The position numbers and the translations under genes were made by a program. A stretch of DNA of 64,000 nt from Tribonema minus (lineage: Eukaryota; Sar; Xanthophyceae; Tribonematales; Tribonemataceae), in the NCBI GenBank assembly GCA_017506865.1, contig JAFCMP010000514.1, forward strand, positions 1,612,001-1,676,000. Reading direction: 5' to 3'. A model generated the notes under the pieces. That model ran no database searches, was not told where the DNA came from, and saw only the letters and a list, made by a program, of their open reading frames with translations. Each line of letters opens with the position of its first letter. Positions within the stretch are counted from its first letter, which is position 1. Positions 89-63,995 of the stretch are shown piece after piece.

Positions 89-3000
89 TGCGGCCGCATG
101 GTCGTCGCGCGCGACTACATGACGCTCAAGCTGTGGGACGTGCGCATGGAGGCGAGGCCCGTCAAGGCGATCAGCGTGCACGAGCACCTGCGCCCGCGGG
201 TGAGCGCTGCCGCCATGAATAATTTGCTGCTGCTGCGCGTATGATCGCTGCTGCAGAGTGCTGAGGCTGCTGGCTCGTGCTGTGTGCTATTGCCACTGCA
301 AGCGTGTGGGCAAGTGCTGCTGGTGCTGGCGTGTCTTTAGCGCTGTTTGCTGCGATGCATGTTGAGCACTGCTGCTGCTGCCGCACGCTGCTGCCGCTCT
401 TCGAGCCGAGTGCTGCGGCTGATGCATGTTGAGCGCTGCTGCTACGCGCTGCTGCCGCGCGCCGCTGCTGCTGCAAGCGTGCGCCGGGTGCTGTGCTCGT
501 GCTGCTGCGGCTGATGCTGTTGAGCGCTGCTGCGCAGCGCTGCTGCCGAGCGCTGCTGCTCAGGGTTAGGCTTGACTAATCCTGAGCGTGTGTCGAGCGG
601 TGCTGCCGAGCGCGCTGCTGCGAGCACGTGTGCTGAGCGCTGCCATCATTGTGTGGCAGCGCCCAATACCGCCTGACTCTCTCACTGGATGATGTAATGG
701 TTGCCGCATTGATAGCTTTTGCGCGCAACGGCGGTGGCGGCATGCTTAGACAGCAGTGCTCAGCCTATGGCCCACTGCCGTCGGGTGTATACTGCCATGC
801 TACATGCGCGCTCCAACTCGAATTGTGCAGGTTTTATTTTTGCTCGTCTCGTAGTGGACACCGCGCAAGCTGTTTGCCCTATACCAAAGCACCTCCACAT
901 TCGGCGAGCGCAAGTACGCGCACCACGAGCAGCGCGCCCTCCCATGCATGCGGTTGCAGTTTTGACGCGCGCAGTTCCAACGCGTACTTTCGACGCGCGC
1001 GTGTCGAAACTGCAACCGCATGCATGGCTAGCCCTCCCCGCCACGACCCATTCGCCGTGGTCCTTTAACCCTAGCCCTGACCCTAACCTACTTATTCGAC
1101 TTCAGGCCCCTTGAGCAAGTGGCCTCCGTCCTCCTCACTGCTCCCCCGTGATCCTCACGCTTTCTTGTGTGCCGCCGCTCCGCTGCCATCGATACTACAA
1201 CTGCATGCATGGTTAGCCCTCCCTGCCGCTTACCTACGACAGATTTCTGACTTGCGCCGTGGTCCCTTCCCTTTCCACGTCACCTTAACCCTAACCTAAA
1301 CCTAACCGTAACTGTCATATTTGCCGCGTTTCCGCCGCCGTCGCAGCTGCTGGACCTGTACGAGAACGACTTCATCTTTGACAAGTTTGAGTGCGCGTTC
1401 GCCCTTCTTTTTCCACGTAACCCTCGCCCTAACCTCAACCTATCCCTATGTTGTCGTATTTGTCGCATTTCCGCCGCCGTCGCAGCTGATGGACATCTGC
1501 GAGAACGACTGCATCTTTGACAAGTTTGAGTGCGCGTTCCCTTCCTTTTCCTCCACGTAACCCTAACCCTAACCTAAACCTAACCCTATCTGACGTATGT
1601 GTCGTACTTTGCAGCTGCTGGACCTGTACGAGAACGACTGCATCTTTGACAAGTTCGAGTGCGCGATCAGCGGCACCGCGTCCAACGTCGTCACGGGCTC
1701 GTACAACAACATGTGCTCGCTGTACAGCTGCCACGGCCAGGGGCACGCGTCGCTGGAGATCACCAAGGTCAGTCTTGCTGAGCGCTGCTGCTGCTGCTGC
1801 TGCAGAGCACTGCTGCTGCGCTGCCACGCTGGCGCCCTCCGCACCGCTATGCACTACATAGCATCAGGCTTGCTGAGCGCTGCTGCCGAGCGCGGCAGCA
1901 CTGGCGCCCTCATACCGTCGTTTGCATACAACGCCTGTAGTGCCAAGCACTTGTGTGCAGGCTGCCGTGCGGGTGCCAGTGCTCGTCCCCGTTCATGACC
2001 GTCAGTTAACTTGGCAATTATTGAATCTACATACTTTGATCCGTCCGGAGTGGAATCGGTTCGGGGGGGCAAATACTGTTACCAAGGTCAGCCTCGCTGA
2101 GCGCTGCTGCTGAGGGCTGCCAACCGTTTTTCTGTTTCCACGATTCATGTCTGTGCAGTAAGGCTGCTGTGCGGTAGATGTTAACCCCACTTGGGGCCGT
2201 TCGTAGGCTTGAGAACCTTGGGTCTACTTTTATCTGGCGCGCCTGCACGGCGCGCATGTCTGCCGCTACGGCTGGCTTAGTCAGTCTTGCTGAGCGCTGG
2301 TGCTGCTGCGGGGCGCTGTAGGCATCCTGGACTGCCGGCGCAGTGTCAGCACCTGCATTTTGTGGTCAATCGGCACAGTCCCTTGCCCTTCAGCGCCCGG
2401 GATCAGCAGCACAACCACTGAGATCCGCCGCTTGGGGTCAGGGCTAGGGTTAGGCGCACGCGGCTACCCGTGACCACGAGCATCGCTCATCATTGACGGC
2501 TCTCTCCAAATCCATTGAGGGCTCTCTTCCAAAGCGTGAGCAGCGCTGTTGAGGTGCATCGCGCTGCTGGGGCAGGTGTATGTCTGGTATTTGCGCATGA
2601 AGTCCACAACTGACGCCCCCCCCCCGCCCCCCCAGCACAGCACACCGCTCAACTACTGCACACAGCATAACCACCGCACACGGCATCGTCCATCTGTGCA
2701 TGATGTGCAGCACTGACATTGACCCCCCCCTATGCCCCCCCCCCCCCACCCCCCACCCCACCCCCCGCACACAGACATCACCCATCCGTCACCCGCGCAT
2801 GATGCTCAACATTAATATCAACCCCCCCTCTACCTCCCCCCCCCCCCAACCCCCCCACCCCCCTACGCCCCCCCCCTCCAGGACCCTTCACGGAGATCGT
2901 CCGCCAAGAAGAGCAAGCGCCACCCAGTGCCGGCAGGGGCCAATGGCTCGAGCGCCGCGGCAGCAGGGGGCCCACAGCCCGGCACCCCCGCCGCCTCCGC

Positions 3001-3109
3001 CATCGATTTTGACCGCAAGATCCTGCACATGTCGTGGCACCCGCGCGACGACATCATCGCCGTGGCAGGGCTCAACAAGCTGTACATCTACACGGCACAG
3101 AAGCCGTGA
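89..3109 (+). CDS. PPP2R2: PP2A regulatory subunit B, B55/PR55 family (C-terminal exons, 5' end outside window)
   Basis: Three exons are visible: 89-199, 1615-1767 and 2882-3109 (stop TGA 3107-3109), all joined in phase 0 by GT-AG introns. Together they give 163 residues that follow the B55 C-terminus in order. First comes a WD-repeat strand around [10 protein letters not shown] and a VHEHLR stretch, then [12 protein letters not shown] and TGSYNN, and finally a basic SAKKSKRH segment and the last blade ([17 protein letters not shown]). B55 is the seven-bladed WD40 subunit that directs the PP2A catalytic core to substrates; this part covers roughly the last two blades. Upstream exons lie before position 1. 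Intron 1 holds two partial copies of exon 2 and intron 2 holds copies of the exon 2 donor region. The neighbour CRIPT converges from the other strand. The family call is firm; the exact paralogue is not. Confidence 0.92.
200..640 (+). repeat. CTG/GCTGCTGC-rich low-complexity intron sequence with GAGCGCTGCTGC motifs
   Basis: The start of B55 intron 1 is made of interrupted CTG triplets and repeated copies of a GAGCGCTGCTGC motif (near 203, 430, 512 and 630). The same motif follows donor sites throughout the window. Long open frames here come from the triplet repeat and are not taken as genes. Confidence 0.6.
1257..1545 (+). repeat. Two tandem copies of [telomere-like repeat + acceptor + 5' half of B55 exon 2]
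   Basis: Two upstream units repeat the layout of the true exon 2: a CCACGTNACCCTAACC stretch, a short spacer, CAG, then about 54 nt of exon edge (1347-1401 and 1486-1540; true exon starts at 1615). Spacing is 139 and 129 nt. Both retain the AG but carry amino-acid changes, such as C to F in the ENDCIF motif of the first copy, and neither continues into the rest of the exon. Confidence 0.85.
2077..2310 (+). repeat. Partial copies of the B55 exon 2 donor region
   Basis: Sequence at 2088-2116 repeats the exon end ACCAAG, the donor GTCAG and the following GCTGAGCGCTGCTG. A shorter copy lies near 2279-2300. They sit downstream of the authentic donor at 1768 in the same orientation. Confidence 0.6.
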
Positions 3110-4454
3110 GCAGCGGCGCGCCGCCCCCTGCGCGCCCCGTTCACGCACGAGTGACTCTCTCCCCGCCGTCATGCTGGGTTTCGGCGCGCGCGTCTGTGTG
3201 TGTGTGTCGTGCCTCGCACGCCCATCGAAACGCAGCGCGCGCCGGCTAGCGCTTCCCCTAGCCGCTGCGCGCGCGGGCGCGCGCGCCGCCGCTGTTGCCG
3301 CCGTGCGTCGTTGCAACGCTGTCTGCACCGGGGTGTGTTCGGTAAGGGCCATGGACGCAGGGGGGGGGGGGGGGGGAGGAGAGGGGGGGCAGAAACTGGC
3401 ACTGCTGGCGCATTGCGTGACCGTTCACATAGCGTTCCGGAGGAACTTTCTGTGTGTCTGGCATAGCACGCTGCCATGTATACGACAACGCAAGGCGCGA
3501 CTGTTCCCGCGGAGGCTGCGACGCCCCTGCCCCTACGCAACTGCTCTCACTGTCGCGCAGGGGCAGTAGTGAGGGGTAGGCAAGTATGCCCCGCGGGCGG
3601 CGCTCGTCTCGGTCCCGTAAGAGGCACCGTTTGCTCACCTTAGAGAGACAGCGCGATAAGTATTAAGACGGGGGGCGGGCGGAAGGCTGGGGGAGGGGGA
3701 GTATCTGTTGCGTGAATCCGTTGGTCGTCATTGCCGCAACAAGTTGTGCACATTAAACGATCTTGCTCGTGGGTCCCTCTCGCTGTCTGCACTTGTGCCG
3801 TGCTGCCGTGCATTGCTCGTTGCTCTGCTCTGGTGCTGACATTACGGTCGTTGTCAGTGCTGATGTGCATTATGACCATGACCGGGTGCGTCTGACCGTT
3901 GTTGACCATCACCATCAGCGGAACATCGGACTGTGTGCTGAGAGGGTACATCAGGCGCACACATGCACTATTATGGTGTGCGTGTAAGAGAGAGAGAGAG
4001 ACCAAGATGCGCATCCAATTGAGAAGACTCGGTTTGTGTGGCACCCTTTCAGCAATGGAGTCCGAGCCAACAGGAAGGGAATGTGAAAGGCCCCCTATAT
4101 GAGGCTTTTCAAGGAGGGGGAGACGGCATATGGCCGTAGCATTGAGCGTGGTCGCGCACTCGTGTCATTTCGCGACAGGTCATGGACCCCTCTTGCTGAC
4201 AATCATCATCCGGGCTTTCCGTTCTAAAGCGAGGAAAATAAACAATAGTGACCTACATGCACCACATGCGGTCATGGCACCATGCACTATGCCGCAACAG
4301 CATTCAAGCAGACAAGCCGAGAGTGTGACATGCACAGAGAAGTGCCAATCAGGAGAATCGCTGTTGTGAAGAGTGTGAACATGTACAGAGGAGTGCCATT
4401 TAGCAAGGTCGCTGGAGCAAAGCGCTAAGCTTTGCGGCGCGTCCAGTTATGTAC
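3110..4454. other. Convergent intergenic region between B55 and CRIPT
   Basis: This stretch lies between the stops of two convergent genes. It contains a G run at 3361-3377, a short GA repeat near 3988-4000 and GC-rich low-complexity sequence. I see no exon with recognisable protein similarity. A minus-strand open frame at 3640-4044 has no family features. Confidence 0.5.
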
Positions 4455-4540: not shown

Positions 4541-4573
<33 letters not shown>

Positions 4574-10400: not shown

Positions 10401-13400
10401 GCTGCAACGAACTTAGGGTTAGGGTTAGGTAAGTTATCCAAAATGCACGTCTCGCATGCGCTGACCTCTGACGCCCGCACTTGCAGGAGCCGCGCCGCAA
10501 CGCTCTTCTTTGTGCTCGACAGCCGCTTGTGCCTCAATGACCACGTACTGGCTGTGTGTACGTAGCGTATGTATCCCGTGCGCTGATTCGCCCAGGAGCG
10601 CGTACGTGGCGCGCGTGGAGCTGCTGCTCGCGGCGCTGCGACATCTCATCCTCGTTCTTCTGCCCAATTCACCTACAGTATGAACAGAACACACCCACGG
10701 CAAACTAATGGTCATCCTCCTGTGCGCTGATCACTGCCACACACACTCTCAGGAGCGCGTACGCGGCGCGCGTGGAGCTGCTGCGCGCGGCGCTGCGGCG
10801 CGACATTCATCTGCATACTCGACAGCCACTTGTACCTCCACAACTATGTACGGATACACCCATAAGAAATGCATAACCCACAAGGAGCTCACATGTTCTG
10901 TACGCTGCTTCGCCCAGGAGCGCGTATGCGGCGCGCGTGGAGCTGCTGCGCGCGGCGCTGCGGCGCGACAGCTGCTTGTACCTGAATGACCACATGTGGA
11001 CACTGTATATACTGTATATCCGTACTGACTGAATATACGGTATGTATCCTCTGCGCTGGTTCGCCTAGGAGTGCGTACGCGGCTCGCGCGCCGCTGCGGC
11101 GCAATGCACACCCTCGCACTTATCACCTCCTTGTACCTGCATGATGAGATCGGTCTGAAAACACTCATACTGACCGTATACACTGCATGTGATATGTGCT
11201 GAGTCGCGCAGGAGCGCGTACGCGGCGCGTGTGGAGCTGCTGCGCGCGGCGCTGCGGCGCGACGCGACGGCGCGCGAGCGGCGCCTGCGGCAGCAGTCTC
11301 GCGTCCCCTTTGAGCAGCTGAGCCTCGATCCCAACCACGAGCTCGAGCCGCGGCCGCAGATGGGCGCGCGCCAGCCGTACTGGGTCATGCGCCTGCTGCG
11401 CGTAACTGTCACGCACGGGGGGTACCTGTCGCCGCACCTCTTTGTGCCCAAGGTATGTGTGTGTGTTGAAACCTACCTTACTGGTATTGGTGTGCAATAC
11501 CTACCTCTCGTACTGGGTCATGCGCCTGCTGCGCGTGACGGTCACGCACGGGGGGTACCTGTCGCCGTACCTTTTTGTGCCCAAAGTATGCACTTGTGCG
11601 TGTTGATACCTACTGCTGATGTGCTGCTGAGCGTCTGCTGCGCGTAACTGCCACGCACAGGGGGTACCTGTCGCCGCACCTCTTTGAGCCCAAGTATGTG
11701 CTGCTGGTACTTGTGCGTGACCTTTGTGTGACCAATATTTTGGGAGCAAGTAACATTGGTATTGGGTTGCAGTACGTACTTTTGTACTGGGTTGTTCGCT
11801 TGCTGCGCGCGACGGTCACGCGCAGGGGGGTACCTGTCGCCGCCACTCTTTGTGCCCAAGGTATGGATGTATAAGTGTTGATACCTACTGTACTGGTATT
11901 GGTGCGCTATAGCTACCCTGCGTACTGCGTACTGCGTACTGCGTCATGCGCATGCTGCGCGTAACTGTCACGCACAGGGGGTAACCTGTCGCCGCACCTG
12001 TCGCCGCACCTCTTCATGCCCAAGGTATGTACGCTGGTGTTTGTGCGCGATACCTACCTTCGCAGCTGGTATGTATTCTGGTATTGATACGCAATACGTA
12101 CCTTCCGTACTGGGATACCTGTCGCTGCACCGCTTCGTGCGCAAGGTATGTGCCCTCTGCGGCGCCTCTCTGGCACTGTCCCTGTCCCCCAACACCCTCC
12201 GCGAGCGTCACCCCCCCCCCCCCCCACTTTCCACATATTCCCGCGTTTCCGCAGGGCCCGTGGGCGCAGGTGGGGGTCAAGTTATGGGCTTCGCGCCCAA
12301 CATTCAGGCCATGCCCTCCTCCCCGACCCTGTGCCTGCGAGCCCCCCCCCCTCTGTGCCCTCTTTGGGGCCTCTTCGTGTGCTGTGTGTGTCTCTCCACT
12401 TCCTTTGCGAGTGTCACACCTTCGCGAGTGTCACACACTGATACTCCCCCCCCCCCCCCCCCCCCATGAAATCTTTTGTTCCCGCAGGGCTTGTGGGCGC
12501 AGGTGGGGGTCAAGTCACGGGCTTCGCACCCAAGATCCACGCCCTGCCCCCCTCCCCAACCCGTGTCTGTGCCCTCCATGACGCCTCGTTATGCACTCAA
12601 CCCCCCCCCCCCTCCCACCCCCCCTCTATGAATCCTTTGGTTTTCGCAGGGCATGTGGGCGCAGGTGGGGGTCAAGTTCACGGGCTTCGCGCCCAAGATC
12701 CAGGCCATGGAGGCGCTCCTGTACATGACCATCGATAAGGTGATCGCGCTGCCCAAGCCGTCCGACAACGAGTCGTGCCACGGCGCGCTGAGCGCGGCGC
12801 GCGCGTTCCGCGAGGCCGCGTACAAGCTGCAGGGAGATCTGGCGCGCACATTCCCCTTTGTCGGGGGCGCAGACACGCCGCTCAAGGTGCGTCCGGTGCG
12901 TCCACGTTCAAGTTGATGTTAGCATCCAACTTCAACTGTGCCGCGCGCGCGCGTTCCGCGAGGCCGCGTACAAGCTGCAGGGCGACCTCGCGCGCACGTT
13001 CCCGTTCGTGGGTGCGCGGACATGCCGCTCAAGGTGCGTGTAACTTCAATATTGATGTAAACAATCAAACTTCAGGTTTGATATGAGGGAGGCGTACAAG
13101 CTGCAGGGTGACCTCGCGCGCACGTTCCCGTTTGTTGGGGGTGCGTACACGCCGCTCAAGGTGCTCCCAACTTCAATATTGATGTTAGAGAAGGCCCAGC
13201 ACGGTCGCCAGGCGGTGCACAAGCTACAGGGAGACCCCTCTTCTCGCGAGCACATTCCCTTTTGTGGGGGGCGCGGACACGCCGCTCAAGGCGCGTTCGA
13301 CTTAAACATCAATGTTGACTTCCAGCTTCAACTTTGCCACGGCGCGCTCGGCGCGGCGCGCGCGTTCAGCGAGGCCGCGTACAAGCTGCAGGCGACCTTG

Positions 13401-15207
13401 CGTGCACATTCCCCTTTGTGGGGGGTGCGGACACGTCGCTCAAGATGCGTCCAACTTCAATGTTGATGTTCAATGAGGTGTGCCACGCGCGCATTCCGCA
13501 CGCCGGACGCAAGCTGCTGCGCGAGTTTGCGAGCACGCAGCGCACGTGCTGTTGTGACGCGCTGCGGTGCCATTGAGCACGTGGACACACTCGCTCAGAT
13601 GTTGACAGGTGTCCAAGGCAAGGGCATTGCTCCAGAGCTCAGCGGTGTTCGTGTTTTCAAAGGAGGGGCATATAAAAGGAGGGGCATATGGTGTGCAACA
13701 ACCCGCGTTCAATGTAATGCAGACACCTGGTTTAACTAGGTGCCCCGCCGGCCTAACTAGCGGTAGGAAGCTGGCCATGTAGGCAAGACAAAATGCTATG
13801 AATGCCTCTGCTGGCGCGCCATGCCTACATCGACCGCACGCCGTTAACCCCCCATACCCCCCCCCCCCCCCCGCCCCCCCCCGCTCGCCGCAGTCCATGA
13901 CGCCGCGAACGAACCTGGCAAAGCTCAACAGCATGGTGAAGTCGATAGGGCGGAACGTGAAGCAGGGCGCCGCGGTGGCATACGAGCGCATTGGCGCGAG
14001 CGTCCCCGGCAAGGGTGCGGGTGATGACGAGCTTGTCTACTACGCTCAGCTAGTGTCCGAGGTCTGCGGCAAGTGCCAGGTACAAAAGCCTTCAATAGTA
14101 TTATGAAAGTAGTAGGTACTCATGTATGTACTACATGTTATGGGGCGGCAGTAGGTGTTCATGTTTGTACTGCGCTCAGCTAGTGTCGGGGATGTGCGGC
14201 AAGTGCCAGGTACGAGAGCCGCACGCAGCATCATGTGTGCAGCAGTAGGCGTTGGTGCATGCTTAGAGTCCCAGCAGCGCAGAGGGCAGGCGTGCGCAAG
14301 CTCGATTGGGTGCATGTGTGTTGCATACGGCACGGTGCACAACAGGGTTTTCACCCGTCGTGTGGAAGTAAATAAAGTACGAGTCTGGCAGCAGGAGACG
14401 TGCTGCCGCAGGCAGCGCACTACAGCACGGAGGCGACATATTACACAACCGATGCCACGCTTTTGGAGGCTCTACAGGAGATGGTGTTATGGTCTATGCG
14501 CAGCTGATATCACAGGCCCAGACCTCAGGTTTCTCCAGGCGCCACGGGCTAGGGTGAGGTTTAGGAGTAGAATTAGGGTTAGGTCAGCCGGCGGCGGCGC
14601 GCCGGCCCGGGTCGGCACGCATGCGCAGGGGAGAGGCGGCAGCGCGGGGGCCTTGCGCGCTGCGAACATGCGGTGACGGCGCTGGTGCGCCAGAGTGCTG
14701 CCATTTCATTTGCCAGGGCGCTTGCTGTGCTGACTCGAATGCGCACACGGGCGCGCATGCTGGCTGACACAACGTACCCCTCCACTCAACGCATGTGTAC
14801 CTGCCTACCTCCTTAACCCCGTCCCAAACCCTAACCCTTACCCTAGGGTCTGATGCATACCCTGAACATACATACCCTACTCCATGCAGCAAATTCCTAC
14901 CCCACCTACTCACGCACATACCCCCCCCCCCCACCCCCGCGTGCGCCCGCAGGTATTCGACGACTGGCTCATCAGCGCGCACCGCGCGCGCGCGGACGCC
15001 GCCGCCATCTCCCCCGCGCGCGGCGGCGGCGCCGCCACCGCCGCCGCCGAGGAGCTCCTCGCGGAGCTCACGCGCATCTCCGACTTCATGCGCGAGACCA
15101 TCGTGGAGATCGTGCTGCGCGACGTCGACACGCTGCTCGACCGCTACCTGCGCAAGATGCGCAAGTCGTTCGCGCGCATGTACTTTGACACGGACGAGGA
15201 TGCGTGA
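7430..15207 (+). CDS. MIT-like-domain protein, function unknown
   Basis: Five exons join in consistent phase: 7430-7707, 11212-11452, 12650-12886, 13894-14079 and 14953-15207 (stop), giving 398 aa. Residues 31-110 resemble a MIT three-helix bundle: helix 1 around VLSVLNSALDLARAAV, helix 2 around YYEKAILAIDTAMQLL, and helix 3 across the first junction, AQHR then SAYAARVELLRAAL. MIT domains bind ESCRT-III tails or microtubules, as in VPS4, spastin and spartin. The rest (a WVMRLLRVTVTHGG stretch, FAPKIQAMEALLYM, and a final helical segment with RISDFMRETIVEIV) I do not recognise; no AAA ATPase motifs are present. The ATG at 7430 is the first Met before the MIT helix and stays open to the donor. 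Exons 2 and 3 are flanked on both sides by arrays of edge copies. The exon chain is well supported by phase; the MIT call is moderate. Confidence 0.75.
9290..9480 (-). repeat. Dispersed repeat family, copy 1
   Basis: The reverse complement of this segment matches 15908-16090 and 33482-33633. Shared parts are TCGCTCAGGGCGCGAAAAAG, a central CAACGACAACCACTCAAACG and a terminal stretch rich in CCCC. A poly-G run (9294-9308) marks one end. No coding capacity; probably a non-autonomous element. Confidence 0.75.
9749..9769 (+). repeat. Interstitial telomere-like repeat
   Basis: Perfect CCCTAA units in MIT-gene intron 1. Confidence 0.9.
10218..10360 (+). repeat. 71-bp tandem duplication
   Basis: Two near-identical direct copies begin with ATGGGCTGACCGCAG (10218 and 10289) and include GAGGGTTGCGGTGAGGGTCA. 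They differ by about one base over most of their length. They lie directly before a TTAGGG tract. Confidence 0.9.
10413..10430 (+). repeat. Interstitial telomere-like repeat (TTAGGG)
   Basis: Three TTAGGG-type units in MIT-gene intron 1, reading in the opposite sense to the tract at 9749. Confidence 0.85.
10484..11105 (+). repeat. Copies of the 5' edge of MIT-gene exon 2
   Basis: Direct copies of the acceptor plus the first 45-60 nt of exon 2 lie at 10590-10650, 10750-10804, 10912-10970 and 11062-11105, with a weaker one at 10484-10510. The true exon begins at 11212. Each strong copy retains AG followed by GAGCGCGTACGCGGCGCG or a close variant. The roughly 150-160 bp spacers diverge more than the copies. 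Confidence 0.92.
11505..12152 (+). repeat. Copies of the 3' edge of MIT-gene exon 2
   Basis: Five direct, degenerate copies of the last 50-80 nt of exon 2 with the donor region follow the true donor at 11453. They lie near 11510-11592, 11625-11700, 11783-11868, 11940-12030 and 12105-12152. Most keep CCCAAGGTATGT or a one-base variant. Indels shift the frame in several, so they are not usable as full exons. Confidence 0.92.
12250..12560 (+). repeat. Copies of the 5' edge of MIT-gene exon 3
   Basis: Two copies of the acceptor and first 60 nt of exon 3 (12250-12315 and 12483-12560) precede the true exon at 12650. Each follows a poly-C tract and keeps CGCAGGG followed by GTGGGCGCAGGTGGGGGTCA. 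Confidence 0.92.
12943..13545 (+). repeat. Copies of the 3' edge of MIT-gene exon 3
   Basis: At least four direct copies of the last 80-110 nt of exon 3 follow the true donor at 12887: 12943-13040, 13082-13170, 13195-13300 and 13336-13455, with a shorter fourth-class fragment at 13480-13545. They end in CCGCTCAAGGTGC or variants. Several have donor changes, such as AAGATGC at 13441. Confidence 0.92.
13850..13885 (+). promoter_or_regulatory. Poly-C tract at the 3' splice site of MIT-gene exon 4
   Basis: An almost pure C tract lies directly upstream of CGCCGCAG, with the exon beginning at 13894. It probably replaces a mixed polypyrimidine tract. Confidence 0.6.
14160..14217 (+). repeat. Copy of the 3' edge of MIT-gene exon 4
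   Basis: A direct copy of the exon 4 end (TACTGCGCTCAGCTAGTGTC through GGCAAGTGCCAGGTACG) lies about 130 nt downstream of the true donor at 14080. Confidence 0.85.
14548..14584 (+). repeat. Interstitial telomere-like repeat
   Basis: Degenerate TTAGGG units in MIT-gene intron 4. A reverse-sense CCCTAA tract lies 250 bp downstream. Confidence 0.7.
14826..14848 (+). repeat. Interstitial telomere-like repeat
   Basis: CCCTAA-type units in MIT-gene intron 4, just upstream of exon 5. Confidence 0.8.
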
Positions 15208-16681: not shown

Positions 16682-19600
16682 ATGGGCAATTCGCATGGAT
16701 CCTTCGAGCTGGCGGCGGAGGCGAGGAGGGCTTCAGAGAGGTTTGACGATTGCGAGATCAAAGTGATCAGGGAGACTTTCAAGGATCTCTGCCACCTGAG
16801 CGGCGACAACACTCGCATAGACAAAGAGGTGCGTGGCTTCCATCCGCCCTCACCTCAATTACTTTATGCATATGTTGCCACGCTGGCTACGCACGCGTGC
16901 GTGTGCTGTGCTCTGTCCTTCTGTGGGAAGTTGGTTTCCCGTCTGTTTGCGGTGCGGAGGTGCTGATGTGATCATGCAGAATCAGCCCAACTCAGCAAGA
17001 AAGCCCGGTAACACTACACCTTCTTTCAACCATCTGTTACTGTAATACTAGTGGTACACGAAGTATCATTTTCATGAGTGTGGTGTCTGCCAGAAATGAC
17101 AATTTCACAACAGCTATGCATGCCATTTCTGCAGCAGCAAGTTTGCCTGAGCGCACTTGCAGCGCTCGTGCGCCGCAGCATATGGCACGCCTGCATCGCA
17201 CGACGTCGGCTAGCGTGGGCTCTGGACTCAGAGCGTACCTCAACATCTGAGGTACTGAACTGCTTCGTGTAGAAGTACACACATCATCTGGGCTTTTTCG
17301 CGCCCTGAGCGAGAATTAATAAAAAGTACACGCACCAGTTTTGTGTTGTCCCCAGTATTTGGTGCGCCATATATCCCGTGCCCCCCCGTGGAGCCCCAAT
17401 TATGCATGACGCTGGTGCAGCATTGTCTCTGCGACACGCGCTCTAACGCTACTCACTGCTGCGGATATAGACTTTCCACATGGTCAGTCAGTCAATACAA
17501 GCCTGCCAGTCAGTAGGGTCAGTGCTCAGTTTTGCGCCTGACATGCCTCAGCGTGCGGCCTCTGTGCGAAACTGCCGTGAGCTGCGCGCCGCCAGCGCCC
17601 TTATGCGGCGGCGCCGCGGCGCTGTGCACAGCCTCCGCAGGCGCTGCGTTAAACTTCAAGAGCGCGTGCGCGGCGTGCCCAGCGTCGGCGGTTAGCGAAG
17701 TTGGCGGTGAGCGCACCATGCCAATGTCTAAGAAAGGCACTTACTTTTGAAATCTTGCTAACTGCACCGGGACGTCACCATAGAGAAGCATTGCTCAGCT
17801 CTCACCATAGAGAAGCATTGCTCCGCTCTGAGGCGCTGAGCGCAATGCATTTGCACACGATGGCTTTCCTCGTTTTTTATAATGGCACTTTTCGTCTAAC
17901 CTATCTGCAACGGCTTGATGACGGCGATGCGTCACCGCACCGCCGGAAGAGCCGCCACGGCGCAGCACATCTCTCGGCGTGTGGATTCTTTCATGGGGTG
18001 CGGCGCCGTGCGGACAGCGCCATCTGCGACAGCCGATGGAAACGGCTGTTACGTCAGTGCTCAGCAGGGGTCGATCTACATTAACAAGTAATACATACAC
18101 ACTCAGTTTGGAATTCAAGCAATTGCCTCGCGGCTGCGAGGCGCGGGTTTTCACAGTTTGCAACGCCGTGCGCAGCACCGTTGCGCAGCACCGTCGGCGA
18201 CACCATGAGGCAGCGCGTGAAACTTCAATGTGAGGTCAAAGAGAGAAACGGACACGGCAGTCGTGCTCAGCAGCGGCTGGCTGCGCCGCGGTCTCCGCTG
18301 CTGCGGAGCGCTGCTGCGGAGCGCGGCGTGCCGCCGCCGCCGCTGCTTTGGTCTGCCGACTGCGTGCACGGCGCGCTGCACGTTGCTGGCCCCCATTCAT
18401 TTGACTGCGTTACGCCAACTCTCCTGCAGGCATGGCATTTACGCCCCCCCCCCCTGGCAGACACATGACACTGAGCCGTCGGCGCTATTGCGTGAGGCGT
18501 AACACAAAGCCACGTGCCTCCAGGCAACTATATCATGCCGCGACCAATCCCCCTGCACCCCCCCCTCCCTCCTCCCCCCTGAGCGCTGCAGACCTTTCTG
18601 CAGTACTTCCCGCTGCCGGGGCTGCTCGGCGAGCGCCTGTTTGCGGTCTTCGACAAAAAGAACATTGGCGAGGTGGACTATGAGGAGTTTGTGTGCGGGC
18701 TGGCGGTGACGTGCCGCGGAAGTTGGGCGGAGAAGGTGGAGTTCATCTTCAACCTGTACGACGTGCACGGGGTCGGGGCGGTGTCGCGCGGGGAGCTGGC
18801 GGCGCTGGTGAGCGCTGCTGCAACGTATACAGACACATTGTTTTATATGTTGCTGAAGCTAGTTGTTTAGTACTGTTCACGTTGTGCATCCTGTAGGAAT
18901 TGAACTCGCGTTGAAGACCTTATCAGCCCCACAAGTGCGCAGCTCAAACCACTCAGCTGTCAGACTTCCCGCTGACAATGTTGAAGTGTGCTGTTGAACA
19001 TATGAGTCTCGGGGCGGTCTTGCGCGGGGAGCTGGCGGCACTGGTGAGCGCTGCTGCTGCAACTGCCGTTGTTGAAGTTTGCTGTTGAACATGTGTGTTT
19101 CGGATTAACTGCCGCTGTTGGAGTGTGCTTTTGAACAAAGTGGGTTGTGACGGTGTCGCGCGGGGAGCTGGTGGCGCTGTTGAGCGCTGCTGCGAGTGCC
19201 GTCGAGTTGAAGTTTGCTGTTGAAACATTGTAGCTCGGGGCCATCTTGCGCGGGGGGCTGGCGGCACTGGTGAGCGCTGCCGCAACTGCCGTTGCGTTGA
19301 AGTGTGCTGTTGAACTTCAATATATCTTCAAGGTGCAAAGTGCCTGACTTGAGCGAACAAATTGAATGCCAATCCTGACCCTTATCAGCGTATGGCCCGC
19401 ACGTCGCACACAGCGCAGACGCCGATGGCGCTCGCCTTGGGTGTCTTTGTCTTAAGGCTGCACTTGACCTTCAATGTCCCTCCGACCCTTACAAATTAGG
19501 GTCTGTGTGGCACGCCTCGCGCAGCTCACCCTGCCAAATGCGTTGCTTTCATTGCGTTCTCGGTCGTGTCTTGCGTGGTTCAACTTCAACTTCAATGCGC

Positions 19601-22600
19601 ACCCTGGGCACCCACGCCTCAAACGCTCCACGCACCGCGTGCGCGCGCAGCTGAACCACAGGCCGAAGAGCGTCACGAAGCTCGGCCGCGCGCTTAACCC
19701 AGCGCCCATGAATTCATTGTGAATTCACCTCCCCCCCCCCCCCACCACCACCACGCGCGCCTCGCCGCAGCTGAACCACGTGCCCAAGAGCGTAATGAAG
19801 CTCGGCCGCGCGCTCAACCCGACGGGTCAGCCGGGGGCGCCGGCCGTCGCGCCGCCGCCCGCGGCAGCGCTCCGCGCATCCGCGTCGCCGCCGCTCACGC
19901 ACGACTCCACGCACTCTATGTACGCGCTGCATCTGAGCATGGGCGCCAACGGCGGCGGCGCGGGGGCGATCGGCGGCGGCCCGAGGTACGGGGTGGTGGA
20001 AGGGGCGGCTGAGTGATTGACCGACTCTCCGCACCTCTCACATGTATCGGCAACATTGACACACTAGGTGCTCCAGGCATGTTGGAGGTACATTCATGGT
20101 CCTTGATGAGCGACCACCGCAGTGGAGCGGGGGGGGGGGAGGTGGGGGGGGCTTGCAGCACACCCGCCGCCTCAAACTGCTGGTGACCATGATGCCTCAG
20201 GTCATCGTGTTCAATTTGTTATTGCGCAGTGGGTGCGCGAAGAAGCGCTGGGTTAGGGTTAGGGGTTAGGGTTAGGGTTAGGGTTAGGTGCTGCGGGGCG
20301 TGCTCAGGGTCAGGAACCGACCCCTACCCTGAGTCAACACGTGCCCACAATGGCGGGGCGCAGGATAGGTATCTGCCGACAGAGCCGCGCATGGGCGCTC
20401 TGCAGCCTCCGTCGGGTGGCAACGGGTTAGGTTAGGGTTAGGGTTAGGGTTAGAGTGCGGCTGCCGCGATAGAGCACGTCGGCCTGTTGTGTGCTGTCGG
20501 CGGGTCTCTGTTGCTGCAGCTGCGGCCGCCGCTGCGCGTGACTCGCCGCAAATCTCACCCGAGCGCTGCCACCGCCGTTGCCACAGGAGCGAGGGCTCCA
20601 CAGAGCACGACCCGCGCTTGGCCCCTGATTGTGTGACGCACACAGGTACTCGTGGCCATTCTGCAGTCTGAGGCCACTGCCGCTATTGCTGCTGCGCCTA
20701 CTGCAATCACCGCCATCAACACCAGAGCGCCGCCCCCTCACCCCGCGCGCCGCCGCCGCCGCCGCTGCTGCCGCCGCCGCTGCTGCTGCCGCCGCCGCTG
20801 CTTCTGCCGCCGCCGCTGCTGCCGCTGCCACTGCCGCTGCTGCCCCTGCGCGCAATCCACCGCCAAATCTCACCCGAGCGCTGCCGCCGCCGCCGCCGCT
20901 GCCGCCGCCGCCGCAGGAGCGAGGGCTCCGCGGAGCACGACCCGCGCACGGATGAGGAGATGAGCCACGTCAGCGACGGCGACCACGGCGATAGCGGCCA
21001 CCACCACCACCACCTGCCGGTGCCGGGGGGGGCGGGGGGGGGAGGGGGAGGGGGCGGGGGCAGGGGGCGCGCTTCTACGGCGACGTCGTCGTCGGAGACG
21101 CGCACGCGGCGCGGCGAGACGCACCACTACCTGCACCACTACGAGGAGTTCACCAACAACGACATCGTGGACCAGGTAAGATGCGCGCAGTGGCGGCGGC
21201 GGCGGAAGCGCTTGCGTTGCGAATTCAATTAATGAAGTTTGACATGCGGACTGTGTTCACAGATAATGATAGTGTGGACCAGGTGAGATGCGCGCGGCGC
21301 AGCGGCGGCAGCGTTTGGAGCGCTAGCGCATTGCAGTTTTGATTGTTTAAGTTTGAAGTGCGGATGCGCTCCGCACGGAGGACGGCGCGATCACTCGCAG
21401 CGCCGCATGTTTGAGACGCACCACTACCTGCACCACTTCGAGGAGTTCACGAACAACGACATCGTGGACCAGACGAGATGCGGTGCGCGCCGCCGGACCT
21501 GCGACGGCGGCTGCGAGTCGTCGGAAGCGCCGTCCCCCCGCTTGCGCGAGCGCGGTGTGAGCTGGTGGGGGGGTGGGGGTGAGACGCGCACGCGGCGCGG
21601 CAAGACGCACCACTACCTGCACCGCCACAAAGAGTTCATGAACAATGACTTCGTGCACCAGGTGCGGCGCTGCTCAGCTGCGCAGTGTTGAAGTTACAAG
21701 GCTGAGAAATGTGGAAGTTGTCGGGATGGAGCGCAGTTTGTGGAAGGTCGCCAGCAGGCTGCGCCTTGCGGGCAACTACCAGTACCAGGTGCGATGCGCG
21801 CGGCGGCGGCGGCGGCAGTGCCCGGAGCGCTAGCAGTTGCGGTTCCAACTGCTGAAGTCTGAACCGCAAAGCGCTCAGTACCTACCCGCCTATCAAACCT
21901 TAACTGGCTGCTTTATTTTTACCCGTTGCGCCCGCAACAGATTTGTTGCCTGATCATAGCACCTAACAACACGGCGCACGTAAAAGCGCACAAACCAGAA
22001 ATCACAAACAGGGTTATGGTTCAGTGCCTATTCAGTACCTACATACCCCCCACCTCCCCCTTGCGCAGCCACAACGGCAAGCTGTCGTTCAGCGCTCACT
22101 ACCTACATACACCCCCACACCCCCTCAGCGTGCGCGCGTGCAGGCATTTGAGGAGTGCGACCTCGACTGCAAACACCGCGAAGCACTCAGTACCTACATA
22201 CCCCGCCCCTCTCCTTGCGCAGGCGTTCGAGGAGTGCGACCTCGACCACGACGGCAAGCTGTCGTTCAGCGAGTTCCGCCTGTGGATGGAGCGCAACCCC
22301 GTCGTGGCGCGCTTCCTGCAGAGCGTGTTTCCCTACGACGAGTACCGCGACTGGTGCGGCGACGCCAAGCACCTGCCCTTCATCCACAATCGCGACATGA
22401 CGGCGCCGTCGCCCGCGTCGCACTCGCCGCCGGGCACGCCCACGCGCAGCAGCAGCGGCGGCGGCGGCGACGGGGACGATGCCGTTCGGCTGCTGCTGCG
22501 CGCCAAGGTGAGGCCGCGCAGTCGCTGCTTGCACCACTGGCCGCTGTAGACCTCTGCGGCGGCAGCGCGCGCCGGCCGGCCGGCAGCGCGCTCACGTACG

Positions 22601-52555: not shown

Positions 52556-52587
<32 letters not shown>

Positions 52588-57763: not shown

Positions 57764-60700
57764 ATGGTTAGCGCCGAAACCATGACGACAAATAGCGTTG
57801 CCAACAGCAGTATAGTCATAGAAAAGGCGATACAGCAGCTGGAGGTGTGGGAGAAGGAGGCAGGGCGAAGTGCAGATCGGGCCGCGGCGATGGTGCTGCA
57901 GCTGCTGGTGGCTAGCAAGGGCCAACTGATCACCCATGCCAACAGGCAACGATTGCTGGGCTGGGTAGAGCGGCGAACAGAGATGGTGAGTGCTCCTTGT
58001 AAGTGTTGAACTTCATGCGCAACAGCTGATGCGGCGTTGGTACCCATTCTGGCGCACCTGTCGTCAGCCTGACAACAGCACACACCGGCAACAGTGAACC
58101 ATAACTCACAAGAAACCACCGATTGATGCTGACGCGGGGTTGCCAACTCGCGCTGCGGGGGCATGTTTCAGTCTTGGCAGGCGCACACAGGCTTGTTGCG
58201 CCAGCTGGACTGCCGTGCGCTGAGTTGGCGCATGTTGGCGCCTTCCCGCACTTATCATGCATCGATGCACGCCTCTCATGCGTAGCGCCTGTCGAGACGG
58301 CGATATCGCCTGCTGACACGCTTCGCATCATTTTCAGCATCGAGTTCAGGCTCAGGCTCACTTAAAAGCATCGCTTGGAATTGCCGCACGTCAACCCGTG
58401 CACGCCTGAGTATGCAGGCTGCCCTGAGCGCTGCCTCTCGCGCCATTCCAGCTTACTTTGAAGCCACAAACCACTGCCGCGTTCCGTCGCGCGCAGCACC
58501 TGCAGTGGCCTCTACCAGTGAGACAGCCATGCACTTCTGCCATGTGTGGCTTCGACCAGCAGATGTCATCAGTACTGCCTGTGTTGTCGTCAGTTGCTGC
58601 GCAGCGCGTGAGGTACAGGGCTGTGCGCAAACTGTGCCTCAGGACCGCAAATGGCTTGCATAGTGCGCCGTCGCATCTCACAGCCGAATCAGATGCATTC
58701 ATGCCACTCGCGCGTGGATGCGCTTGCCAGCTGCGCCACAGCGAGGCGCTCGCTGCGCTTGTCTGGCTGTTTCGCCCCTGATTCAGTGTTAGGGTTAGGG
58801 CTAGGGCTAGGGTTAGAGCGTTCCGCGCGTCAGGCAGCGTCCCACCACAGCGCTTCCGCGCACTGCAGAGATCGTGAGCTGTGCGGTCTCGTGTCTGAGG
58901 GATGCCATCCCGCACGTTCTGTGGACGGCGCGAAGCGACATCGCTATGCGCCATTGGAGCAACGCCATTACGTGCCTGACACACCTGCATTCCTCGCTAG
59001 CCGTAAGACGGACCCTGCACAGTGCAGACCGTTGAATGAGCGCATCTCGACCCCCCTGCTGTGGGCCCATCAGGCTCGTCTTTACGGAAATGTACGCCGT
59101 CATTGACGGTCTGGGAGGTGTCATAGGCTTAGGGTTGCGGTCAGGTCCCGTACCCTGCCCTAGATGACCCCTCCGCGCGCAGACCGACGTCATACCTGAT
59201 CTGAGAGATGCCACAACGCAGCTACGGGGGTGCGGTCCTGAGGGATGCCACAACACAGCAAGGCGGGGGGCGGAGGCATATATCACTAGTCTGCCAGCAG
59301 CCTCCGCAACAGCAGATCGGCCGCTGAGCCTCGCCTCACCGGTGCCATATGCTCACAAACTGCGCGCAGGCGGTCGTGACGGGCGAGCTGAGCGATGCCA
59401 TCACACCTGAGCGTTGCCATCTGCACACGCCTCAGGGTAGACAGCCGCGTCGCTCGCTAGCCCTTTGACGGACCTCGCAAACGGCGGAATGTCCACTGCC
59501 TTTGCCTCAAGCGCTGGCTCAGGGGCAGGTCAGGATTAGGGTAAGGGGTGGGATCAGGTCTCGTACCCAACCCTTCCGCGCGCAGGCCGACGTCATGCCT
59601 GTTCTGAGGATACTATCGCCAGTCAGTCGGCAGCCTCTGCAATGCTGGACCAGCCACCCCGAGCCTCGCCTCACTGATTGCCATATGCTCGTTCTGCGCG
59701 CAGGCGGACGTCGTGACGGGCGAGCTGAGCGATGCCATTACACGCCTCAAGGCGCGCCTCGACTTCTCCTACTTCCCTGGCGCCGCGTGGGGCAGCGCGG
59801 CGGAGGCGGAGGCGGCGGACGCGGCGCGCGCGCTGGAGGCGGCCTTCGGCGGCGAGCGGCGCGACAGCAGGGTCAACAGGTGACGCTTCGGTGTGCGTGT
59901 TGATTGTTCCTGTTAAGAAACGCTTTGTTTGAAGTGCATTTGACTTGCCTGTGCAGCGGGGGGATAAAGTTGAGCCAAAGCTCGCAAGGATGGTGTCTGC
60001 CATGTACGGTGATGAGGCGGTCTTTGGCGGCGAGCGGCGCGACAGCAGGGTCAACAGGTGACTCTCCCACTGTATGTGAGGACACCTCAGTTGTATAATT
60101 CTGGCCGACCCTGGAGCGTTATGAGGACGATGTTTGCAGTTTACAGTCAGCAGGCGGCGGCGGCGGCGAGCGGTGCGACAACAGGGCCAACAGGTGACGC
60201 TCATGCTGTGCGTGTTGCTTTTTTCTCTCACAAAACGCTTTCAAGTGCATTTGCCTTGCCTGTGCAGGGGGGATCACAAGGCAGATGTATGTTCATGCCA
60301 AGGCTTGTAAGGATGATGCTTGCTGAGTATGGTCAAGAGATGCGGCCTTTGAGGGTTAGAAGAATCAACAGGTGACACTCCTGCTGCACGTGGACGGCAC
60401 AAGTCATTTTGCCCTCGGATTGTCATGGGATGATGGCTGCCACGCGTAGCCGACGGGTGGCAGCAGCGCGTGACGCAGCGCCAGAAATGAGTTTAAACAA
60501 GCAATAAATGAAAAAATGACGCTCCCACAATTCCCCTCCTGCGTATCGCTACTTTTTGGGCCTCGCATGGGGCCAGCCACTCGCCTCAGCACGCTACTGA
60601 CTCATGACTCACAAGTCATGACTCCTCCCCCGTGCACACACAGCGAGGACCTGCCCACCACGCCGAACGGCGCTGAGACGGACGACGAGCAGGGGGAGGT

Positions 60701-63700
60701 GGGGGGCGTGTGGAGCGCGGAGGGCAGCTCAGAGGCGGGGGGCCTGCCGACGCTGCTGGAGGGCATCGAGTCGGACAGCGGCTTCCTGCTGCAGGCGGCG
60801 CACAAGACTACGCGGTGCGTTGTAGGGTTAGCGTCAGGACTAGGGTTAGAAATAGGCTTATGCTGGAGGGCATCGAGTCGGGCAGCGGCTTCCTGCTGCA
60901 GGCGGCGCACAGGACGACGCGGTGCGTTGTAGGTTAGCATTAGGGTTAGGATTGGGGCTAGGGTTAAGGTTAGCGTTAACGTTAGGGTCAGGGTTACCCG
61001 TTACTGGGTTAGCCATAGGGTTAGATTTAGGGTCAGATCTAGGGTCAAGGTGAGCCGTCGGGTCATGGTCAGGGTTGGGATTAAGGGGTTAGGTTCAGCT
61101 GCCTGTGTCGAACGCCTGAGCGCGTGTGGCTGCATACACCCAGGAGCGGTGCCCTGGCGCTACATGTGTGTGCGGGTAAAATATGCCTGCCTCGGGTTTG
61201 CAGCCAAGGCCCTTGAGAATTTTTTGTGCTACTACGTATCTGCCCCTACGTGCTGATCACAGTAAGCGTGCATCGCCCTACTTGATGCAGCTTCCTTCAT
61301 GCCCTGATTAGGCTACACTCAACATGGCTCCAGCTGTGTCTTTGGTTCAGCAATACTCGAGCAGCCTGCTGGTTGCATCTGCGCGTCTCTTCCAGAGGGG
61401 ACATGCACGGCGTGCAAGGGCGCTCATTCATTTGGCGGATGCCTTGCCATGCGACAACGGCGGCGCGCGTGCCCAAATGCCATCGCCTTGTGCGCGCGTG
61501 CCTTGGCAAAAGTTCAACGGCCGCGCAGCCACTCGCACGCTGCAAAGGCGCAATTACGCAACGCCCACTCGCCTGTGATGGCAGCGGTGCGCGCACACTG
61601 CCAGGCCAGCAACTTCAGCATCAACTTCATTGTGAGCGACCTGCGGTGCACAAAGTCGTGTCCATGTGCTTCTGAACTTATTTTCTCACTGGCTCCATCA
61701 ACTTCTGACTGGCTTCATCGACTTCAACTCATTTCCGCAGGACGTGCACGATAGTTCAGCGGTCGCGCAGCCGCCTGCGCTGTTACTACAACATGGCGCT
61801 GCAGGAGCAGATCGCGCTGCCAACGCCGCCGCCGGTAAGCATGCGCATCTCGGCCGTATGCGGACATGCAGGGTGGCACCTTGCTGAAACTACCTCGATG
61901 TAAAGCACTGCTGCTTGCACCCCCATCATTACCGTCAAAGTGTGACAACATGTGTATCAACGCCGCCGCCGCCGTCTCCGTCAAGTTCCGCGTATGCGCT
62001 CACCTGCCGTCGCCGCCGCCAGCAGTGAGCGTGCGCGCCCTGCCATTATACATACGGCATGGTACCTCTGATGGAAAGAAACAATGTCACAATCACCTCT
62101 GTGAGACTTGAAATACACTGCTTCTGGCACATGGATTATCACCATCATAATCACTGCATCGCAACTACATATTTCTGATGGAAAAAAGCAGTGTCACAAT
62201 CACCTCTGTGAGACTTCAAATACACTGCTTCCGGCGCCTGGACCATCACCATCAAAATCATTGCGTTGCAACTATCACGATGCGGAGCACTGCTGCTCGT
62301 GCCCCTGACATCGTCACCAAAGTGCCGACAGCGCCAGTATCAGCAAGCTGCCGCCGCCGCCGCCGGTATGCCTGCGCACCTCTGCCGTATGCGTATGGTA
62401 TGGTGCATCTGACGACAATGAAACTGAAAGTACCAAAATTGCAATCGTGTGTGGCTTGGGCAATTTTGCCCTCTAGCTGCCTTGTCATTGCCCTGAGGGC
62501 GCCAACTGCACATGTACGAACAAAGAATGGAGGCAGCGCACAGAGGCTGCTGCAGGGGCGCATCACACTACGCGGTTAGGGCTAGGATCAGGGCTTGACT
62601 CGGCACCCGCGAGGTCGATTAGCTTGCACGCATCTTGCCCCGTTGCTGTCCTACGAGCGCTGCAGCAAGACACGAGGCTGCGCGCCAGACGTCATGGATG
62701 CGGATATCTCGCCTCATGCGTCTAAAAAGGCAAACGGCGACCCTCCATCTTCAACATTTATTTTTGAGGCTGATTTCGATGCCCATGGCATCGACGAGCT
62801 TGCGTGCTGAGTGTCCAGCCCCCCCAACATTCTCTCTGAGCGCTGCCGCAGGGGTCGCACAGCGGACCGGGGTCAGAGACGTCCACGCCGCCCATGTCCG
62901 ACCTTAGCGCCGTGGGGGCGAAGCGGCCGTCGCTGCTGGTGAGCACTGCCGCATTGTGGCGTCGTGTATGGTGCTGTTGAGAGTGCGCTCCCTCCGACGC
63001 TGCTGCTTGCTTGCTCGTTATTGTCGTTGTTGTGCGCGTACGCATGCGTCGTAAACGCCGCCGGCGCTGACCTCGTCTTGCTGAGCTGAGCTGTCGTCAC
63101 GATGCCCGTTGAGCGCTGCCACCGATGGCGCTGCGTATGAATGGTGCTGTCTCTCATCTCCACTTCTGCGTCTGTGTTGAAGTATCTTGTGTATGAGTGC
63201 ACGTGTTGCCGGGTGCATGCAGGTTTCCTGCTGAACAGTCATCGCGTCGCCAGTTGTTTGCATCTGGAGTGATGATTTTCCATTGTTTTGAGATGAATCT
63301 GAAGTGACGGTTATCCATTACTTCGATGTGGAAGAGTTATAACTCACAGAAGGGAGGCAGTTCCAGAAACAGCAGGACCTCTTGCTGCAGAGATCTCCAC
63401 TGCTGAGGGAGGAAGGCCACACTTCCAATGCCCCCGCTGTCTGCTTCTTGGCATTGAAGAGGTAGGGGTCAGCCTGGGACGCGGGGAGGGTCGGGACGGG
63501 GGGGGGAGGGGGGGGAGGGCTGCAAGACCTTGATGTTGTCGATGCCTGCCATGACATGCTACTCGATGAAAGATGGGTTCAAAGCTTCATCACATGCCGC
63601 CCCCCCTCGCTGCCTGCTCCCCTCAGGCGCTGCGGCTCGGGCCGCAGAAGGACCCCCTGATGGAGAACACGCGCTTTTTATTATCGACGCGACGCGGCAG

Positions 63701-63751
63701 GGGTGGCAAGCCCATGGCGGTCAGCCACATGTGGAACACCAGCGGCGTCTG
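57764..63751 (+). CDS. Multi-exon protein of unknown function (3' end outside window)
   Basis: Six exons join in consistent phase: 57764-57985, 59704-59879, 60644-60814, 61741-61834, 62852-62938 and 63627-63751, giving 291 residues plus two bases, and the gene continues beyond the window. Exon 1 is helical (IEKAIQQLEVWEKEAG, LLGWVERRTEM). Exon 2 continues a helix (ELSDAITRLKARLDF), then Ala-rich sequence ending ERRDSRVN. Exon 3 is acidic and Gly/Ser-rich with LLEGIESDSGFLLQAAH. Exon 4 is basic (QRSRSRLRCYYNMALQEQI) and ends in Pro. Exons 5 and 6 look disordered, with SETSTPPMSDLSAV and a basic STRRGRGGK. I recognise no domain. Exons 2, 3, 4 and 6 have flanking edge copies, as in the other plus-strand genes, which supports their being real exons. 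Exon 1 is the least certain join. Confidence 0.6.
58788..58816 (+). repeat. Interstitial telomere-like repeat
   Basis: TTAGGG and CTAGGG units in intron 1 of the 57.8 kb gene. Confidence 0.82.
58864..59620 (+). repeat. Copies of the 5' edge of exon 2 (57.8 kb gene)
   Basis: Direct copies of the acceptor and first 40-50 nt of exon 2 lie at 59175-59220, 59361-59402 (best: GCAGGCGGTCGTGACGGGCG) and 59576-59615, with a degraded one at 58866-58912. The true exon starts at 59704. Spacers share GTGAGGCTC/GCCATATGCTC text. Confidence 0.85.
60010..60385 (+). repeat. Copies of the 3' edge of exon 2 (57.8 kb gene)
   Basis: Three copies after the true donor at 59880: 60012-60066 (nearly exact, GAGCGGCGCGACAGCAGGGT), 60151-60205 and 60339-60380 (most degraded). 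All end CAACAGGTGAC. Spacers also repeat TTGCCTTGCCTGTGCAG-like text. Confidence 0.92.
60858..60930 (+). repeat. Copy of the 3' edge of exon 3 (57.8 kb gene)
   Basis: TGCTGGAGGGCATCGAGTCG through CGCGGTGCGTTGTAGG repeats the end of exon 3 and its donor 75 bp after the true donor at 60815. Only a few bases differ. Confidence 0.93.
60930..61095 (+). repeat. Long degenerate telomere-like array
   Basis: About 165 bp of TTAGGG-derived units with many substitutions (TTAGCG, TTAGAT, GTCAGG), directly after an exon 3 edge copy. A short tract also precedes that copy (60821-60850). It is the longest such array in the window. Confidence 0.88.
61508..61565 (+). repeat. Diverged copy of the 5' part of exon 4 (57.8 kb gene)
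   Basis: AGTTCAACGGCCGCGCAGCC followed by CAATTACGCAAC resembles the exon 4 text AGTTCAGCGGTCGCGCAGCC through TGTTACTACAAC (61754-61793). Placement upstream of the true exon fits the general rule. Confidence 0.6.
61940..62375 (+). repeat. Copies of the 3' edge of exon 4 and a 106-bp tandem repeat
   Basis: CCGCCGCCGCCG edge copies lie at 61958-61980, 62005-62030 and 62330-62372 (the last with GCCGGTATGC, like the true donor). Between them two copies of a 106-bp unit (62067-62173, 62174-62279) share GTCACAATCACCTCTGTGAG. Confidence 0.75.
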
Positions 63752-63779
63752 GTGAGTTGCAGTGTTGAAGTAGAAGTGC

Positions 63780-63995
63780 CTTTGAAGTTTGAAGCCCATG
63801 GCAATTAGCCTTTTGACTCTGAAGCGCATGGCGGTGAGCCTTGTGTGGAACATCAGCAGCGTCTGGTGAATTTCAATGTTGAGGTAGAAGTGCCCTTGAA
63901 GATCTGACGATGGCCGATCAGTCATGTATGGTAAATGAGAGCCCATGGCGGTTAGCCACGTATGGAAAACCAGCGGCGTCTGATGAGCCGAAATA
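63780..63995 (+). repeat. Copies of the 3' edge of exon 6 (57.8 kb gene)
   Basis: After the true donor at 63752, copies lie at 63790-63810 (fragment), 63826-63880 and 63940-63988. Each repeats CCCATGGCGGTNAGCC and CAGCGGCGTCTGGTGA or variants. Confidence 0.9.

Follow-up and report, generated by a model that had tools for sequence, protein, structure and literature searches.

In the AGGT model of intron gain, the tandem duplication itself creates the new intron. Internal gene duplication, or tandem exon duplication as seen in mutually exclusive exons, involves whole exons with open frames, and minisatellites or other local tandem repeats within introns grow through units that expand and diverge. 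Intron gain by tandem genomic duplication is described for a potato RdRp gene in the available text of PMC4974935, and introners and introner-like elements are dispersed between genes according to the available text of PMC9860276 and PMC4457414. Here we describe a stretch of 64,000 nucleotides (nt) of the genome of the yellow-green alga Tribonema minus (158 Mb, 554 contigs; C511:1612001-1676000), referred to as the window, in which exons of four genes, among them a kinase gene, are accompanied by rows of partial copies of their own edges. With a probability of about 0.77, these copies are what remains of short tandem duplications that arose locally, time and again, across the exon-intron junctions.

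As in AGGT intron gain, a local tandem duplication with exon sequence and splice signals alters the intron content; unlike in that process, no new intron is made, and pre-existing introns are lengthened, repeatedly and on either side. In the kinase gene and its paralogue the exon sizes are the same and the arrays are often elsewhere, which does not agree with AGGT gain. Tandem exon duplication likewise places exon sequence locally within the same gene, but none of 89 copies found in this study is a whole exon, and the frames are not kept. As far as the available text of the sources goes, introners share with the arrays a large effect on intron content and splice sites within the repeated unit; they are dispersed, whereas every array here reproduces the edge of the exon beside it, and for the region 23500-25300 of the window no dispersed relatives turned up in the genome (one region, very common words being skipped). 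The tandem units of 100–200 bp that expand and diverge resemble intronic minisatellites, from which they differ in that the units include the end of an exon with its splice junction and in that they recur at edge after edge. The copies are direct and local, and the intron part of the units aligns above the unrelated-intron baseline, as is the case for local tandem duplication. Rows of exon-edge copies flanking the exon of origin were not described in the available text of the matches listed (tandem-duplication intron gain, introners and intron-gain reviews), many journals lying outside the coverage, and no paper on the T. minus genome itself was among the matches listed for that name.

Copies at the exon edges

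The 21 curated exons of the four genes, with exact edges, were compared by blastn (score of at least 40) with their flanks, which were taken to at most 2 kb or as far as the next exon, and a copy was regarded as carrying an edge when it ended within 10 nt of it. Forty-nine local copies were found. Fourteen of the 15 upstream copies carry the 5′ edge of the exon and one is internal, and 32 of the 34 downstream copies carry the 3′ edge, the other two being internal. No copy was a whole exon (0/49) and none lay on the wrong side (0/49). Neither the reverse-complemented flanks nor random pieces of the same length from 35–41 kb of the window gave any match. These data confirmed the one-sidedness reported in a preliminary description of the window (5′ edges upstream, 3′ edges downstream) and its statement that an exon is never copied whole, whereas its figure of more than fifty copies was too strong, 49 being present at the score threshold used. 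Among the self-matches of the window, 100 of 118 were direct, and 93 of these 100 were less than 1 kb apart.

The arrays singled out in the preliminary description were found again. Kinase exon 7 (24181-24351) has three upstream and four downstream copies above the threshold, and the fifth downstream copy claimed, a weaker one, is readable at about 25048-25113. All five copies downstream of kinase exon 12 (30163-30381) were recovered, and arrays were present on both sides of exons 11212-11452 and 12650-12886 of the gene labelled "MIT", a label for which Pfam gave no support in the three pieces of that gene tested. The divergence of the copies by substitutions and indels, with unequal spacers, was also seen again. 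The gene of exon 1615-1767 is presumably PP2A regulatory-subunit-like; a 51-residue piece of it gave no Pfam match. The PH-kinase part of the kinase gene (382 residues searched) was identical to a public T. minus protein, and the exon model agreed exactly with that protein from the public start codon onward; thus, the public model consists of complete exons and leaves the copies intronic.

The units are direct, local and mostly tandem copies of a contiguous segment, with similar ends within an array and a median length of 161 bp (quartiles 133–189, n = 81). Among 66 untied pairs within arrays, which are not independent of each other, the copy nearer the exon was the more similar one in 47 (P 0.0008). 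In 19 of 24 arrays the nearest copy exceeded the average of the other copies in similarity. In 22 curated introns the arrays cover 8,841 of 21,084 nt (42%), spacers included, and 3,068 nt are recognisably exon-derived; four of these introns have no array. The earlier proposal that the introns have grown by repeated local duplication across the junctions is well supported by the tandem units, the nearest-copy order and the arrays of the paralogue, and the arrays fit introns that lengthen from their ends. The exon parts of upstream copies were somewhat shorter than those of downstream ones (P 0.014). A cap imposed by the branch point (about 60 nt) on the upstream exon parts was considered and not confirmed, the intron parts not differing between the two sides (P 0.23).

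In the array of exon 12 (30382-31270) the intron parts alternate, units 1 and 3, 2 and 4, and 3 and 5 being most alike, as if the units had been duplicated in pairs. Tandem duplications were found also within introns and between genes; one at 26921-27559 is purely intronic (330 bp, 95% identity), and a minus-strand open frame across both of its copies had no Pfam match.

Origin of the copies

In the explanation favoured here, a unit of about 130–190 bp, part exon and part intron, would be duplicated across a junction. A duplication reaching from the intron into the exon would leave a partial exon with its acceptor upstream of the intact exon, and one reaching from the exon into the next intron a partial exon with its donor downstream. 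A complete exon would remain in each case, and the protein would survive if splicing kept choosing this exon, probably by exon definition. The copy would then decay as intron, and new duplications at the same edge would push older copies outward, the introns growing from their ends. Duplications of a whole exon, or within an exon, would alter the protein and be purged. Since this geometry and purifying selection suffice, the polarity needs no special mechanism, and untargeted duplication would leave it. Slippage, misprocessed nucleosome-sized replication fragments and microhomology repair are candidate causes at the DNA level.

Several observations weigh against duplication followed by plain decay. 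In pairs of intronic units the exon parts were 85.0% identical and the intron parts 62.5%, as compared with 45.2% for unrelated introns, and the exon part was ahead in 64 of the 65 pairs listed, which are not independent. In the array of exon 12, the similarity of the exon parts did not track that of the intron parts (rho −0.46, P 0.18). Acceptors (see below) were retained slightly more often than the 0.83 expected from copy identity (P 0.058). At the 171-nt exon, kinase gene and paralogue alike show three upstream copies. Finally, the junctions may be preferred duplication sites. With exons and exon-like copies masked, the direct repeats in 28.8 kb of intron and flank fell into 12 clusters that keep register with an exon edge and 17 free ones, about half of the latter adjoining known arrays (by eye; the sorting is partly subjective); three repeat clusters were found in 17.9 kb between genes. 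With an edge target of about 6 kb (56 edges × ~110 positions, a rough figure), edge-linked events look a few times denser.

The difference between exon and intron parts is also seen in the gap openings (1.24 versus 3.23 per 100). Low complexity does not account for the faster intron parts, the 3-mer entropy being alike (4.69 and 4.64). If each copy was made from a conserved exon, this template accounts for at most about a factor of two in intron-part divergence; in addition, detection went by the exon part, so that copies in which it is well kept are favoured. Together the two effects may reduce the difference to be explained. The intron parts are patchy: about one fifth of 16-column windows are at least 70% identical, as against 0.1% in unrelated introns, and the rest lies in large part near the unrelated level. 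The alignment of intron parts was anchored or taken over whole units and superseded one with free end gaps, which had a baseline of about 0.77.

Such a pattern would be expected if, in arrays begun by tandem duplication, the intact exon had kept refreshing the exon parts through ectopic gene conversion or unequal exchange; these parts would then look younger than they are. The better-kept exon parts and the patchy, unevenly diverged intron parts argue for this, as do copies that are on average closer to the exon than to each other, although such closeness is expected anyway of a conserved exon. The discordance in the array of exon 12, which is not significant, hints at exchange between units; of the four further arrays compared, two show a significant joint rise of exon and intron similarity and two a non-significant one. 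Conversion should moreover have homogenised the intron parts of tandem units too, and 27 sites where the copies are unanimous in differing from the exon show that old exon states have not all been erased. As an account of the arrays this is doubtful, but for the better-kept exon parts the foremost candidate is conversion or exchange with the intact exon.

The fate of the copies was followed by codon position in arrays with at least two copies, the frames of predicted exons being those of the gene finder described below. Changes unique to one copy were distributed over codon positions 1:2:3 as 74:59:71, and the 27 sites at which the copies share a state other than that of the exon as 4:2:21. 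The exon, being under coding constraint, thus changes chiefly at third positions; its copies show no such constraint and preserve earlier states of the exon. Twenty-six of 28 indels in copies were not multiples of 3. Among copies of the wider set of 103 exons (see below) aligned to within 2 nt of the edge, the donor dinucleotide was kept in 36 of 46, as compared with 0.79 expected from copy identity (P(≥k) 0.62), and the acceptor in 24 of 25, so the claim that each copy keeps its splice site was too strong. AG was present in 23 of the 24 retained acceptors; the remaining one belongs to an edge of the paralogue set 3 nt early, where CAG is found. With weight matrices trained on exons predicted in the same genome, copied donors scored lower than real ones (means 3.92 and 6.21, P 0.0009) and copied acceptors did not differ from real ones (3.55 and 4.23, P 0.88). 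Of 52 copied donors, 24 equalled or exceeded the real site in score, as did 17 of 30 acceptors. Since so many copied sites score this high, the site alone cannot be what ensures correct splicing; our guess is that exon definition secures the choice. Judged by their sequence, the copies look like decaying relics and not working parts.

The preliminary description had suggested decoy splice sites or alternative splice ends; on a reading of this kind, selection for splicing regulation would keep the copies. The strength of many copied sites, the retained acceptors and the lower divergence of exon-derived parts relative to intron-derived ones speak for such a role. Support from the sequence is otherwise wanting: changes unique to a copy show no codon-position bias, the indels break the frame, donors are weaker overall and are lost at the neutral rate, and the unit lengths show no bias to multiples of 3 (30:29:22 modulo 3). 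In addition, arrays are often unlike between paralogues and the public kinase protein uses complete exons only. Working copies are therefore improbable.

Reverse-spliced or reverse-transcribed fragments, or introner-like elements, could also leave intronic copies with splice sites; such an RNA-mediated or mobile origin is highly improbable, since the copies include unspliced flanking intron above the unrelated baseline and adjoin their own exon, and the one region searched matched only itself and the paralogous exon. An assembly artefact is scarcely credible, given copies that differ in substitutions, indels and spacers, contigs of up to 2.1 Mb, and independent arrays on other contigs.

Beyond the favoured reading of recurrent junction-straddling duplication, a more far-reaching form of it can be put forward tentatively, in which the junctions of this lineage would be hotspots for nucleosome-sized tandem duplication. 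Introns would be built outward from the exon edges in a conveyor-like manner, with the intact exon serving repeatedly as template, through new duplication or conversion, and splicing would tolerate many near-perfect competing sites by strict exon definition.

Distribution in the genome

A paralogue on contig C543 (locus L001), 76% identical to the kinase gene (one exon, DNA search), has seven upstream copies with the 5′ edge, six downstream copies with the 3′ edge and four internal downstream copies, none being on the wrong side. Exon sizes of 171, 132, 150, 246, 129 and 219 nt are common to both genes, the last with the edge of the paralogue set at a GC donor. The 132-nt exon has three downstream copies in the paralogue and none above the threshold in the window gene, and the 219-nt exon has two copies on each side in the paralogue versus none upstream and five downstream in the window gene. 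Since the exon sizes are homologous and the arrays in many cases occupy different exons or sides, a good many of the arrays, at the least, are younger than the introns that hold them. The apparent GC donor of the 219-nt exon (AACAAG/GCGAGT) is retained in its nearest downstream copy (GCAAGT).

The wider set of 103 exons comprised 28 curated exons (window and paralogue) and 75 predicted in 28 kinase-centred loci (L003–L030, at most 10 kb each, 279.6 kb in all) chosen from partial kinase hits. Aligning 120 kinase proteins in spliced mode, without splice-site scores, gave spurious tiny exons and was replaced by a small gene finder, which was trained first on 21 exons from the kinase gene and the paralogue and then on its own predictions; it recovered exactly 13 of 20 curated window exons, training-set kinase exons among them. 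A stricter low-complexity filter, which gave fewer copies than the window and paralogue counts, was relaxed for this set. Eighty-three edge copies were found, all on the expected side, with six internal, no whole and no wrong-side copies. At least one copy was present at 23 of 28 curated exons versus 13 of 75 predicted exons, the latter figure being diluted by the false exons that the predicted set surely contains. Either the predicted exons lower the rate, being in part false or longer, or the window is richer in copies than average. Edge copies were present in nine of the 28 loci. A separate run at a higher threshold on 76 predicted exons of L001–L027 gave 23 edge, three internal and no wrong-side copies, and its two controls gave no matches.

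Pfam domain hits by exon, which are independent of the gene finder, were screened for pairs in three further families (chaperonin 56, kinesin 137 and myosin 99; 292 in total), 131 kinase hits being left out. Eleven pairs were flagged, ten in the expected sense, the odd pair being copy versus copy; one of the ten, on C279, is probably just the next exon. Nine are clear partial duplicates beside a fuller hit, all with the expected polarity. The pattern, suspected earlier to be genome-wide, is therefore widespread, with copies in nine of 28 loci and in three other families, but not universal.

Kinase hits of equal or near-equal score on contigs C90 and C179, and on C223, C144 and C278, suggest recent segmental duplicates or haplotype contigs, with which an allele-level dating of arrays would become possible.

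Features of the window and significance

The coordinates of the exons and their copies are listed in Table 1. Nine short telomere-like tracts, each of at least two TTAGGG/CCCTAA units, occur in the window, some of them adjoining arrays, and 13 were found in 299.6 kb of other loci; they are possibly scars of break repair. A long terminal repeat (LTR) retrotransposon occupies 41706-55111 on the minus strand, with long open frames at 43573-49491 and 49449-53939 in what we take to be a Gypsy-like order. It looks recent, since its direct repeats of 399 bp (41706-42104 and 54713-55111) are 100% identical.

Table 1. Exons with local copies, and telomere-like tracts, in window coordinates.
Feature	Extent	Strand	Upstream copies	Downstream copies	Remarks
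Exon 1615-1767, PP2A regulatory-subunit-like gene (presumed)	1347..1767	+	1347-1400, 1486-1539 (5′ edge)		CAG directly before each copy; units 139 and 129 bp
Exon 11212-11452, "MIT" gene	10596..12145	+	10596-10640, 10753-10804, 10918-10969 (5′ edge)	11509-11584, 11631-11694, 11784-11860, 12112-12145 (3′ edge); 11935-11999	Edge broken in 11935-11999
Exon 12650-12886	12260..13444	+	12260-12313, 12488-12546	12945-13033, 13092-13160, 13206-13290, 13335-13444
Exon 13894-14079	13894..14209	+		14168-14209 (3′ edge)
Kinase exon 18592-18807	18592..19269	+		19009-19043, 19142-19179, 19235-19269
Kinase exon 19771-19985	19651..19985	+	19651-19700
Kinase exon 20917-21175	20587..21661	+	20587-20617	21413-21472, 21581-21661
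Kinase exon 22223-22507	22069..22507	+	22069-22094		Internal copy (exon bases 24-49)
Kinase exon 22846-23031	22846..23507	+		23132-23189, 23257-23315, 23452-23507
Kinase exon 24181-24351 (exon 7)	23683..24974	+	23683-23746, 23845-23904, 24009-24070	24423-24501, 24576-24656, 24729-24812, 24888-24974	Units 162-172 bp upstream, 150-162 bp downstream
Kinase exon 26548-26697	26420..26697	+	26420-26448
Kinase exon 27762-28007	27762..28135	+		28075-28135	Internal copy (exon bases 172-232 of 246)
Kinase exon 28665-28793	28665..29241	+		29208-29241
Kinase exon 30163-30381 (exon 12)	30163..31270	+		30512-30566, 30683-30730, 30858-30900, 31043-31097, 31217-31270	Units 164-197 bp
Fourth-gene exon 59704-59879	59373..60193	+	59373-59406	60014-60057, 60152-60193
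Fourth-gene exon 60644-60814	60644..60921	+		60861-60921
Fourth-gene exon 63627-63751	63627..63982	+		63822-63865, 63940-63982
Telomere-like tracts	1558, 5785, 9749, 10413, 14827, 20250, 20430, 30421, 58788

The better-kept exon parts and the possible preference for junctions are points worth pursuing, and the arrays raise the testable question of what makes duplications span the junctions. Often a copied site matches the real one in strength, which makes the copies natural competition tests of splice-site choice. The rows of copies are a record of intron lengthening in Tribonema minus, from younger to older, kept beside a conserved reference exon.

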